From Rhodobacterales bacterium (GTDB lineage Bacteria; Pseudomonadota; Alphaproteobacteria; Rhodobacterales; Rhodobacteraceae): a DNA stretch of 64,000 nt. The position numbers and the translations under genes are program-made. Of this stretch, positions 22,176-25,483 are shown piece by piece. Numbering within the stretch: the first letter of the stretch is position 1; every line of letters begins with the position of its first letter. The stretch covers positions 62,001-126,000 of the forward strand of contig JAPLPE010000037.1 in the NCBI GenBank assembly GCA_026400355.1, written 5' to 3'. The notes beneath the pieces are model-generated. The model did no database searches and was not told the origin of the DNA. It saw only the letters and a list, made by a program, of their open reading frames with translations.

Positions 22176-22805
22176 ATGCGTCTCCTCCCCGGCATCCTTG
22201 CCATGGCCCTCATCGTCGTGGCCTCCAACATCCTCGTCCAGTTCCTGATTCTGGACGGACTGCTGACCTGGGGCGCCTTCACCTATCCGCTGGCCTTCCT
22301 CGTCACCGACATCATCAACCGTGTCTACGGCCCCGGCCCCGCCCGCCGCGTCGTCTTTGCGGGCTTTGTCGCGGGCATCATTTGCTCGCTCATCGGCACG
22401 CAGGTCATGCTGGAACACGGCCCCACCGTGACCCTCCGCGTCGCCGTTGCCTCGGCCATCGCCTTCATCGCGGGCCAGCTCCTCGACATCACAGTCTTCA
22501 ACCGTCTCCGTGCGGGCAGTTGGTGGAAGGCCCCGCTCGCCTCCACCCTTCTGTCCTCTTCGCTCGACACGGTGCTCTTCTTCTCCATCGCCTTCTCGGC
22601 CACTTTCGCCCTTCTCTTCAGCGCCGATGCCAACGCCGCCGTCACCTGGGCACAAGAGGCCGCACCGCTTCTCAACTCCGGCCCGACGGTCCCCCTCTGG
22701 GTCAGCCTCGCCATCGCGGATTGGAGCGTCAAGCTCGCCATGACTCTCATCACGCTGGTGCCATTTCGCATCATTGTCGGGCAAATGCTGCACCGCGCAA
22801 ATTGA
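22176..22805 (+). CDS. yhhQ: Queuosine precursor transporter (YhhQ/DUF165 family)
   Basis: 209-residue inner-membrane protein of the queuosine precursor transporter family (vitamin-uptake fold), which imports preQ0/preQ1 in E. coli. Six hydrophobic segments and the typical FTYPLAFLVTDIINRVYGP motif (about residues 33-51) plus AGQLLDITVFNRLR (about residues 108-121) are present. No preQ1 riboswitch was recognised in the 55 bases upstream. It is the last gene before the small RNA locus at 22829. Confidence 0.92.
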   Translation: MRLLPGILAMALIVVASNILVQFLILDGLLTWGAFTYPLAFLVTDIINRVYGPGPARRVVFAGFVAGIICSLIGTQVMLEHGPTVTLRVAVASAIAFIAGQLLDITVFNRLRAGSWWKAPLASTLLSSSLDTVLFFSIAFSATFALLFSADANAAVTWAQEAAPLLNSGPTVPLWVSLAIADWSVKLAMTLITLVPFRIIVGQMLHRAN

Positions 22806-22828: not shown

Positions 22829-22834
22829 TTGACA
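22829..22834 (+). promoter_or_regulatory. Putative -35 element of the small RNA/mini-ORF locus
   Basis: A perfect TTGACA lies 24 bases after the stop of the transporter gene, in an AT-richer stretch, and about 46 bases upstream of the strong Shine-Dalgarno site of the mini-ORF. A -10 at 17-base spacing (ACCTTC) is a poor match, as is common in Rhodobacteraceae, so only the -35 is called. Confidence 0.35.
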
Positions 22835-22892
22835 AACACAAAATCTGTGCCACCTTCCGCTCATCCGAAACCCATTGAAAGGAGGTGATCCA

Positions 22893-22949
22893 GTGTCAAG
22901 AAAGAGATTGGAGAAGTGCGTCGGGACAGCTTGGGGGATGATCAGCTAA
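22893..22949 (+). CDS. 18-residue peptide with perfect Shine-Dalgarno
   Basis: GTG-initiated ORF encoding MSRKRLEKCVGTAWGMIS. GGAGG ends seven bases before the GTG, ideal spacing, and the complement to the ribosomal 3' end is unbroken over about 12 bases, far stronger than at other genes in this window. The stop codon TAA lies inside the 9-base-pair hairpin that follows. The peptide is basic at the N-terminus with one Cys and one Trp. No function is known to me; it may be the true product or a translation-dependent switch for the RNA. Confidence 0.5.
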   Translation: MSRKRLEKCVGTAWGMIS

Positions 22950-23017
22950 GGCAGCCCTTGGCTGGAAGTTGCCCAGGTGGATGCGTCTAACCGACCCCAC
23001 CTCCTGAACTTTCGATG

Positions 23018-23048
23018 GGACCGTCCGAGACTGTCGGGCGGTCCTTTT
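23018..23048 (+). terminator. Rho-independent terminator
   Basis: GGACCG-TCCGA/TCGGG-CGGTCC forms a strong stem around a short loop, followed by TTTT (23045-23048). It ends the small RNA unit. The stop codon of the convergent membrane-protein gene (23047-23049) lies inside the T-run, so the hairpin may serve both strands. Confidence 0.85.
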
Positions 23049-24960
23049 AGTTTTCCGGCGCAGGCACATCCGCCAATCCCAAAGCCTCCAGCATGTCCGC
23101 CTCGGCCGCATCAATCGCCGCCATGATCTCGGCCTCGAACGCGTCCCGCGACACGGCCTCGTCCAGCTTCAAGATCGTGAAATCCACCCCCAGCATCACA
23201 GCGACCCCGCCTGCGATGCCACCCAAAATTGCCCCCGCCGTCGTTCCGGCCCCCGGTACGACGCTCCCACCCGCTGCCCCGGTCCCCGCCCCGATCAGCA
23301 TTCCCGAACCCAAGGAAATCGCCTTGCTCCCCGCGATCTTGGCCAACGCCTCGGCAGCGGCAGTAAAGACCCCCTTGGCCAACATCTTGGCCCCCACCTT
23401 GGCCATGACAACACCTACCAGCGCTCCCGCCGTCACGCCGCCCAATCCGGCCGAGGCAAGGCGCATCTCAAACCCGATCGCCGTGGCGGACAGATCGCTC
23501 GTCAAAAGCGTCGCGGGCCGCTGACCGATCTCGATGATCCCCACATCATCGCGCGGGACCGCAGCAGCACATCCCCCCAGCACTACCGCCCGCCGCGCCT
23601 CATGCACCTCGGCCAGAACGCTGTTGCCTGAAACATCTGCGATCGCCCCTTCAAGCCCCGCCAGCGGATCGCCCACGGCCAGTTGTGCCTGCAACTCCTG
23701 ATCCAGATAACTCACGCCCGACCCAACCAGCAGATAGGCCGTCCGCAGGTACTCGGCCCCCAGACTGTAGTACCAGTCCAGAAACCCCGGCACATTCGCC
23801 CGCACCCTGTCAAACCCGGCCCGCACCGCCGCCCGCAACGTCTCCCGCTGCGACGACAGGATTGCCGCAAACTCCGCGTCCAGCGCCTCGACCGCCGCAA
23901 TCGTCCCCGGCGGACATTGCAGCGAGCCAATCGCCTCGGCCTCCACCATCTGCCGGATCGTCGCTGGCGACAGCGACTCTGTCACAACCCGCCCAGGCAG
24001 GTCCTCCCCGGACAAGACAGGCAATTCCCCTTCGGACAGGTCAGTCACAGGCAAACTTGCCGCCTCCGTCTGCACCGGCCCCAGATACCGGCCCGCCCCT
24101 GCCTCAAGCCCCGCCAGCGCCTGAAAGTACCCTGCCGTCAGCACCACACCGACCGCCGCCAGCAGCGCCACCCGCCCCGCTCCCACCCGCGCGGGCGTCG
24201 CGGCATCCGTCGGTACAAGTATCCGCCGCAAGGCCGCCCGCGGCAGCAGACCCGCCGCCATCGCGAACCCGACCCCCGCGAAATACCCGAACGCCGTAAC
24301 CGCCCGCCAGGCCGCGATCACCCACCCCGGCACCGCCTGCCCTTCGGCCCAGCCCACCCCCCAGGCCTGCACCCCGGTCCACAGCGCCACAGTGTCCATG
24401 ACCTGCGCCACCACCATGCTCGACCCAGTATAGCGAGGCTCTCCTGCCACCACTTCGGCCAAAGTGCCGCCACCCGGGACCGTGGCCAAAGCCGCCGCGA
24501 CCGCCATCACCCCAGCCGCCCCGAAAACCGACAACAGCACCACCGGCTTGACCCGCGCAAAGGCCCGGTACCGCGCCGCCACCCGCCCCACGACAGGCGA
24601 CACAGCAATCAGCAGCACGACCGCCCCCGTCGCCGCGATCCAGCCCAAAGCCGCAAATCCCTGCCCGATCAGCGCCGCCGCCACCCCGGTCCCCGCCATC
24701 AGCGCGGGCCCGGTGGCCACCAGACAGCGTAAAGGATGCCCCAGCCACAGCCACCACACCGGCCGTTCCAGCATTGCGCCCTGATGTGCCATCCGCACCG
24801 CCGACAGGCTCGCCAGCACCAGCCAAACCGGCACCGCCACGACCAGCACGACCGCGCCAGTCACCGCCAGCGGCATGGCCGGCCCCGTCACCGCCGCCAG
24901 GGCCAGAAGCCCCAGGATCACAAGGCTGACGACCGCAAAGCGGGCGGGTGACGCGATCAC
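23047..24960 (-). CDS. Hypothetical membrane protein with glycine-zipper C-terminal region
   Basis: 637 residues, not recognised. The first 280 residues hold about seven hydrophobic helices. A hydrophilic middle (about residues 290-490) carries LQCPPGTIAAVEALDAEFAAILSSQRETLRAAVRAGFDRVRANVPGFLDWYYSLGAEYLRTA, likely helical. A C-terminal Gly/Ala-rich stretch (about residues 510-600, with repeated GxxxG such as GAGTGAAGGSVVPGAG and GAILGGIAGG) resembles glycine-zipper segments that insert into membranes, and an acidic helix ends the protein. The GTG start is supported by GGAGG five bases upstream. It stands alone, divergent from arfB. Function unknown; a membrane-inserting or pore-like role is only one possibility. 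Confidence 0.85.
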   Translation of the reverse strand: MIASPARFAVVSLVILGLLALAAVTGPAMPLAVTGAVVLVVAVPVWLVLASLSAVRMAHQGAMLERPVWWLWLGHPLRCLVATGPALMAGTGVAAALIGQGFAALGWIAATGAVVLLIAVSPVVGRVAARYRAFARVKPVVLLSVFGAAGVMAVAAALATVPGGGTLAEVVAGEPRYTGSSMVVAQVMDTVALWTGVQAWGVGWAEGQAVPGWVIAAWRAVTAFGYFAGVGFAMAAGLLPRAALRRILVPTDAATPARVGAGRVALLAAVGVVLTAGYFQALAGLEAGAGRYLGPVQTEAASLPVTDLSEGELPVLSGEDLPGRVVTESLSPATIRQMVEAEAIGSLQCPPGTIAAVEALDAEFAAILSSQRETLRAAVRAGFDRVRANVPGFLDWYYSLGAEYLRTAYLLVGSGVSYLDQELQAQLAVGDPLAGLEGAIADVSGNSVLAEVHEARRAVVLGGCAAAVPRDDVGIIEIGQRPATLLTSDLSATAIGFEMRLASAGLGGVTAGALVGVVMAKVGAKMLAKGVFTAAAEALAKIAGSKAISLGSGMLIGAGTGAAGGSVVPGAGTTAGAILGGIAGGVAVMLGVDFTILKLDEAVSRDAFEAEIMAAIDAAEADMLEALGLADVPAPEN

Positions 24961-25057: not shown

Positions 25058-25483
25058 ATGCTCCGGATCAACGATCACATCACCCTCCAGGACTGGGAAA
25101 TGACCGAGACCTTCATGCGGTCCTCCGGCCCCGGCGGGCAGAACGTGAACAAGGTCTCGACCGCCGTCGAACTGCGGTTCGAGGCCGAACGCTCCCCCTC
25201 GCTCCCCGTTCCGGTCAAGGCGCGCCTGCGCCGCATCGCCGGCTGGCGCTGGAATGCCGACGGCGCCATTGTCATTCAGGTCCAGGACACCCGCTCTCAG
25301 GCCCAGAACCGCGAAATCGCCCGCGAACGCCTCGCCGACCTCATCCGCGAAGCCTGCGTCGTCCCCAAACGCCGCGTCCCCACCAAACCCACCCACGGCT
25401 CGGTCAAACGCCGCCTTGTCGCCAAGAAGGTCCGGGGAGAGGTCAAGGCCGGCAGGCGCGGGGTGGAGGGGGAGGAGGAGTGA
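25058..25483 (+). CDS. arfB: Peptidyl-tRNA hydrolase ArfB (ribosome rescue)
   Basis: 141-residue class I release-factor-like protein that frees stalled ribosomes. The catalytic GGQ lies in RSSGPGGQNVNKV (about residues 22-34), with the basic C-terminal tail (KRRVPTKPTHGSVKRRLVAKKVRGEVKAGRR) that enters the mRNA channel in known ArfB/YaeJ. It has no codon-recognition domain, as expected for ArfB. It stands alone, divergent from the membrane protein and 93 bases before the 3' end of the convergent pncB. Confidence 0.94.
   Translation: MLRINDHITLQDWEMTETFMRSSGPGGQNVNKVSTAVELRFEAERSPSLPVPVKARLRRIAGWRWNADGAIVIQVQDTRSQAQNREIARERLADLIREACVVPKRRVPTKPTHGSVKRRLVAKKVRGEVKAGRRGVEGEEE

Follow-up and report, generated by a model that had tools for sequence, protein, structure and literature searches.

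What is the function of a small intergenic RNA that carries a perfect Shine-Dalgarno (SD) sequence, a copy of the 16S anti-SD and an 18-codon open reading frame (ORF)? An original prediction had placed such an RNA in the 64,000-nt stretch of Rhodobacterales DNA analysed here (the window), proposing that it could change between a folded, ribosome-silent state and an open state, or serve as a sponge for ribosomes or mRNA SDs. Using comparisons across the family and the class, we tentatively read it as a ribosome-responsive leader RNA tied to arfB, a gene for an alternative ribosome-rescue factor.

Parts and distribution of the RNA unit

The unit is about 185 nt long (22864..23048, + strand), as delimited by conservation, by its fold and by a terminator, and its folding energy of -85.9 kcal/mol was not reached by any of 200 shuffled sequences (z -5.76). 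It follows a gene of the yhhQ/VUT family for a queuosine-precursor transporter (22176..22805, + strand), a conserved upstream neighbour identified by synteny and family match, and precedes a gene on the opposite strand (23047..24960, - strand) for a 637-amino-acid membrane-like protein with no Pfam or NCBIfam match. The stop codon of the latter gene overlaps the end of the RNA terminator.

Transcription would start at about 22864, downstream of a predicted promoter at 22830..22857 (+ strand). The TTGACA originally pointed out is present as a -35 element (22830-22835), and no 9-of-12 match to the sigma-70 consensus was found at this promoter; it has an extended -10 (TGn, 22849-22851) before a -10 element CACCTT (22852-22857). 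Since 48 of 62 Rhodobacterales loci keep the pattern TTGACA-16 nt-(TGn)CAnnnT, positioned -46 to -50 relative to the SD, the promoter is, on this comparison, of an extended -10 type conserved among relatives. Between the -35 and -10 elements lies a conserved imperfect inverted repeat, ACACAAAATCTGTG(T), seen at 22836-22851 of the window and in the upstream regions of homologs, which could be an operator.

The extended SD, GAAAGGAGGTGATCCAG (22877..22893, + strand), is complementary to 17 nt of the 16S 3′ end. This was verified with the 16S rRNA of a family relative, whose 3′ end reads GCGGCTGGATCACCTCCTTTCT, while a search for the 16S 3′ end in the window's own assembly did not find it. The 14-mer AAGGAGGTGATCCA within this site occurs once in the 4.07-Mb assembly (reversed control, 0); it starts at 22879 and not at 22880, a small correction to a perfect SD that otherwise proved real. 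Even strongly diverged homologs retain GAAAGGAGGTG within the SD. The remaining parts lie downstream on the + strand, and several of them were found much as predicted. The ORF begins with GTG at 22893 and ends with TAA (22893..22949; codons 22893-22946, TAA 22947-22949), encoding MSRKRLEKCVGTAWGMIS. Its start codon falls within a hairpin (22889..22912) in which UCCAGUGUC (22889-22897) pairs with GAUAUUGGA (22904-22912), and its stop codon is contained in a 9-bp hairpin (22943..22964) and abuts GGCAGCCC, an arrangement that recurs in diverged homologs. An inner helix (22920..22995) joins GTCGG (22920-22924) to CCGAC (22991-22995) and is followed by CACCTCC (22998..23004, within CACCTCCT at 22998-23005), the copy of the 16S anti-SD, which pairs with 22881-22887 of the SD. 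An intrinsic terminator (23017..23048), consisting of a 12-pair stem (23017-23045) and a T-run, closes the unit, and its helix is changed on both sides at 8 pairs in homologs.

A plain DNA search found the RNA in 26 of 61 relatives, and a search with a covariance model (R1), built from an alignment of 61 Rhodobacterales copies (A1), detected a copy, nearly always just one, in 218 of the family's 246 genera. Some genomes scored as lacking the RNA contain divergent copies that had fallen below the first filter (G036, G013, G570, and G623). Three further divergent copies from Rhodobacteraceae (L242, L245, and L246) carry ORFs of 24-26 codons; they are akin to the MSx type known from other orders and could form a bridge between it and the Rhodobacterales type. 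No Rfam family reached its threshold for the window unit.

Masking of the SD and fixed length of the mini-ORF

When the 61 Rhodobacterales homologs were folded one by one as ensembles, GGAGGTG:CACCTCC had a mean pair probability of 0.93 and the hairpin that encloses the GTG start had values of 0.7-0.94; the RNAalifold consensus agreed with these single-sequence folds on both elements. The SD was paired at 0.96 in Rhodobacterales versus 0.66 in shuffled bodies. In the alignment, 97.2% of the cells of the SD:CACCTCC helix are paired; it is CACCTCC that varies, mostly by C-to-U or A-to-G changes that leave a G-U pair, while the SD side is constant, as expected if the latter is fixed by the 16S tail. 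Of the inner helix, 95.5% of cells are paired and 2 pairs are changed on both sides. For the named structure as a whole, 92.2% of cells pair and 12 pairs are changed on both sides, most of them supplied by the terminator helix, and none of 500 shuffles reached any of five measures. The original prediction had called for a covariation search in Rhodobacterales and had made itself depend on conservation of the pairing arms; the arms are conserved, with covariation above that of all 500 shuffles, and together with the hidden start codon they make a folded, silent state opposed to an open state the natural reading. The idea that motifs merely came together by chance between two genes is refuted: presence of the unit in 218 of 246 genera, the covariation and the fold z of -5.76 leave it next to no probability.

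A CACCTCC-like element is absent from 8 of 21 strongly diverged homologs (those scoring 25-88 bits with R1). At one locus, L165, the SD:CACCTCC match is lost (TTTGCTCTT), and yet ORF codons 7-8 (GAGCAA) perfectly match TTGCTC; from its sequence, this locus looks as if an alternative pairing had been retained in place of SD:CACCTCC.

The ORF is exactly 18 codons long, gap-free and without in-frame stops, in 61 of 61 Rhodobacterales homologs. Its stop codon is TAG in 29, TGA in 18, and TAA in 14 of them, so that both variable positions vary, and TGG was never seen there; none of 400 column permutations yielded a stop-free frame. All 30 further loci, some of them from genomes already sampled, also have 18 codons. 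The best evidence comes from the strongly diverged homologs: an ORF of exactly 18 codons is present in 17 of 21, at a peptide identity of 27% (e.g., MIIGKQEQLVKVTGERTI and MSNWDLELEVRLTSGAKI). The chance of an 18-codon ORF is 0.019 per diverged sequence, a value that is not to be multiplied as an independent probability, because these homologs are interrelated and the model that retrieved them was itself built on 18-codon copies. These data indicated that length and stop position (beside the GGCAGCCC hairpin), and not the peptide, are conserved. Such a length-fixed, sequence-free mini-ORF would be a clean case of selection on the act of translation and not on its product.

An RNA of dual function, whose 18-amino-acid peptide is active by itself, would draw on two residues that are largely retained, E7 (61/61 homologs and 15/17 diverged peptides) and V10 (59/61 and 14/17). 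The rest of the peptide is replaced in diverged homologs and differs between orders, and much of the conservation at codon level falls where the RNA pairs; we regard an active peptide as improbable. A GGAG at codons 6-7, which includes Glu7 (22910-22913 of the window; A1 columns 47-50), occurs in all 61 homologs, with Glu7 itself in 15 of 17 diverged peptides, and is a candidate for an internal SD-like site or for a second partner of CTCC. The idea that rare codons form a designed pause was rejected; codon adaptation is low in the ORF (0.40 versus 0.71 in gene segments), and it is equally low in both alternative frames of that region.

Linkage to arfB and possible routes of action

The downstream neighbourhood was compared across Rhodobacterales. 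The upstream gene belongs to one family, that of the queuosine-precursor transporter in the window, in 60 of 62 loci, and arfB starts -18 to 170 nt from the RNA terminator, often at 8-30 nt, in 47 of 62; among the further loci, it lies within 200 nt in 25 of 30. In the window, arfB (25058..25483, + strand; NF006718, 180.4 bits against a cut-off of 100) is 2 kb away, behind the opposite-strand gene for the 637-amino-acid protein. The earlier statement that neither neighbour explains the RNA therefore does not hold: judged by these comparisons, the unit is the usual leader of arfB, and the window represents a species in which the two became separated. Presence of the two is also correlated: the RNA is missing from 13 of the 14 genera without arfB and from 15 of the 232 with it (Fisher 3.5e-13, 246 genera). 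Seven of the arfB-less genomes retain yhhQ with no RNA seen beside it. Joint loss of RNA and arfB could be a single deletion.

As arfB, whose product rescues stuck ribosomes, lies directly behind the RNA in most relatives, the RNA probably reports the state of translation. A start codon often 8-30 nt past the terminator leaves no room for a separate promoter, and arfB should then be transcribed through the terminator. A terminator ahead of a gene with no separate promoter, as in an attenuator, is found in relatives; the strongly conserved ORF, with arfB directly behind the unit in 47 of 62, would be its leader if translated. In the window, this arrangement is broken by the 2-kb distance.

We propose that in the resting state the SD would be held by CACCTCC, the internal copy of the 16S tail, and the GTG start by its hairpin. 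A 30S subunit could win the SD, with its best chance during transcription, before CACCTCC has been synthesized. Freeing the SD and start takes an average of 11.5 kcal/mol (15.7 in the window), which is outweighed by the 17-bp duplex with the 16S tail at about -30 kcal/mol, suggesting that a 30S subunit can invade. As transcription reaches CACCTCC some 110 nt beyond the SD, the switch would be kinetic, with early ribosomes winning. The ribosome would then translate exactly 18 codons to the stop within its hairpin, and CACCTCC would be released. In constrained folding with the start occupied, CACCTCC moves to codons 6-8 with a probability of about 0.5, pairing with the GGAG at codons 6-7. The signal would be the position of the ribosome and not the peptide. 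Sequence comparison establishes the promoter, the SD and its masking, the length and stop of the ORF, the terminator and the link to arfB, from which transcription, translation, switching and an effect on arfB are predicted. In most species, transcription past the terminator would make arfB, and the RNA would plausibly tie the dose of rescue factor to the supply or progress of ribosomes.

How ribosome engagement might reach arfB was examined by equilibrium folding, which revealed no antiterminator; the terminator formed with a probability of about 0.97 for every ribosome position on the ORF, so classical antitermination is unsupported at equilibrium. The segment after the stop, GGCAGCCCTT, found no support as an antiterminator, since its pairing with the terminator arm (-14.5 kcal/mol versus -9.8 for shuffled letters) was not partner-specific and constrained folding showed no influence of it on the terminator. 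Ribosome engagement might instead alter arfB output through the stability of the RNA, through the kinetics of its folding, or in trans. A terminator indifferent to the ribosome would also suit a constitutively strong, unregulated leader, in which the SD and mini-ORF protect the 5′ end or clear ribosomes and the terminator fixes a low level of arfB, and the exposed SD of the VSHC type described below points the same way. Such a leader leaves unexplained why the SD and start are masked in Rhodobacterales and why the ORF has exactly 18 codons, and we consider it unlikely.

In about a fifth of the loci, the window included, arfB is not adjacent and the RNA is still intact, which suggests that the RNA does more than control arfB in cis; in the window, where an inserted gene separates the two, the RNA would act alone or in trans. 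Separation is scattered on a weakly supported yhhQ tree, requiring 13 changes by parsimony, of which at least 2 are forced by well-supported branches. The RNA might then be a trans-acting small RNA, with arfB a mere neighbour: ribosome loading would free CACCTCC, or other segments, for the SDs of mRNAs, or the RNA would occupy 30S subunits. Consistent with this, relatives sharing its 5′ module in other Alphaproteobacteria stand alone, and one of them, CC2171, is catalogued in Rfam as an sRNA. An RNA-seq transcript of 215 nt has been recorded for a Mesorhizobium member of CC2171 (PMC5596092). Loss of the RNA together with arfB, and the lack of CACCTCC-like elements in the 8 diverged homologs, argue against this reading, which we think somewhat doubtful.

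Small RNAs of Alphaproteobacteria such as cuckoo/alpha-r14 and CcsR carry a CCUCC-type anti-SD element. The unit resembles them in having such an element within a small RNA, but differs in that its one CACCUCC is locked in a long-range helix with its own SD and in matching no Rfam family at threshold. The window motif is CACCUCCU only, versus the CCUCCUCCC of these anti-SD sRNAs, and it is not free for pairing with mRNAs, as CACCUCC is paired with the SD of the same RNA (p 0.93). RcsR1 (RF02552) scored 20.8 bits in the window (E 0.03-0.04), under its gathering score of 60.

As a leader tied to arfB, the unit shares with leader-peptide attenuators such as trpL/rnTrpL of Sinorhizobium a short ORF, alternative pairing and an intrinsic terminator before a gene. 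Unlike them, it has no run of codons for a single amino acid, it is SD-led and not leaderless, its peptide is not conserved, no antiterminator was found, and the downstream gene encodes a ribosome-rescue factor. The terminated attenuator RNA rnTrpL acts in trans (PMC10117765, PMC7298713), and by analogy the terminated form of the unit could do so too. In arfA of Escherichia coli and brfA of Bacillus, an RNA element couples rescue-factor output to the state of translation in a self-limiting manner, the mRNA of the rescue factor being itself non-stop (PMC8874680, PMC10107115). If the leader model holds, the unit likewise ties rescue-factor output to translation via an RNA element, although by other means, since arfB is preceded by a complete terminator and, upstream of that, by a separate ORF that has its own stop codon.

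ArfB is essential in Caulobacter once trans-translation is lost (PMC8012679), and the reviews searched describe no regulation of arfB. A conserved leader whose complementarity to the complete 16S tail lets it sense ribosome engagement would, if true, be a direct link from translation status to rescue capacity.

Relatives in other Alphaproteobacteria

The window RNA matched the CC2171 sRNA (Rfam RF01867) weakly but over its full length, with 37.0 bits (E 1e-6, model positions 1-159). This is under the gathering threshold of 75, which was exceeded in 10 of 289 genomes of the class, and direct membership was rejected. Most of the 37 bits come from the 5′ module GAAAGGAGGUGAUCCAGUGUC of CC2171, which is identical in the window alignment. 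CC2171 (Caulobacter/Hyphomicrobiales) is like the window RNA in its 21-nt 5′ module GAAAGGAGGTGATCCAGTGTC after an AACA-rich leader, its short GTG ORF, its end terminator, and its size; it differs in a mini-ORF of 20-26 codons (VSHCH...), in lacking an adjacent arfB, and in an SD that is masked no more than by chance. Common ancestry of the two is plausible. The consensus helix of CC2171, CAUuGuC:GaCaAUG, joins ORF codons 3-5 to a pre-terminator segment, and its positions are deleted in the window. The equivalent kissing helix between the start-hairpin loop (ORF codons 3-5) and the pre-terminator segment in Rhodobacterales, which had seemed to covary by eye (GAAAG/CTTTC, GAGAA/TTCTC, TGAA/TTCA), was rejected, as it was no better than shuffled partners (mean longest helix, 4.51 versus 4.60).

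An extended SD with an immediate start codon was found in 33 of 385 Alphaproteobacterial genomes (reversed control, 0). The mini-ORFs behind it differ by clade, with 14 codons in the Bradyrhizobium type (VSYTKRCHLAGIAR), 20-26 in Hyphomicrobiales and Caulobacterales (VSHCH...), and about 26 in a third type (MSSE...); most of these loci have a terminator and several exceed the CC2171 threshold. No arfB adjoined a 5′-module RNA of another order (0 loci). Masking of the SD as a trait of the whole group was rejected: it holds for Rhodobacterales and the Bradyrhizobium type and fails for the VSHC type, where shuffled sequences pair the SD more than the real ones do. In the Bradyrhizobium type, the start is paired at 1.00 versus 0.66 in shuffles. 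The 14-codon ORF of that type, VSY(T/L)KRCHLAGIAR (L051, L057, L063, L064, L076, L086, and L087), contains TCACCTC and CTGGGATC, which would be able to mask the SD from within the ORF. At VSHC-type loci (e.g., L033, L056, L081, and L158), the ORF codons for TWI(L/V)AS (ACCTGGATCNTCGCCTC) resemble the 16S tail, and the SD is nonetheless under-paired.

It is conceivable, and we offer it as speculation, that Alphaproteobacteria have an overlooked class of ribosome-sensor RNA, with one copy per genome, a site for the whole 16S tail, an ORF of clade-fixed length and a free peptide, of which the Rhodobacterales version would be a switch that responds to ribosome availability and governs ArfB by means of an internal mimic of the 16S tail. 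If true, this would give a function to the catalogued but unexplained CC2171-like RNAs. Our literature search found no published account of the function of CC2171 or of its mini-ORF, nor a prior description of the unit in work on CC2171, extended SDs or arfB attenuation.

Three loci (L140, L050, and L153) have ORFs of 56-57 codons with signal-peptide-like starts behind the same 15-nt extended SD, and these look like ordinary small secreted proteins. Outside Proteobacteria, AAAGGAGGTGATCCAGTG precedes ORFs of 9-16 codons, most of them followed by terminator-like hairpins, among the matches listed, some of which may be chance matches: L031, L034, L040, and L091 in Phycisphaerae/Planctomycetes, L060 and L073 in Myxococcota, and L039 in Krumholzibacteriia. 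The two from Myxococcota encode similar 15-amino-acid peptides, VESSCSYTAGEVVRF and VDIDCTYTAGEVVHF.
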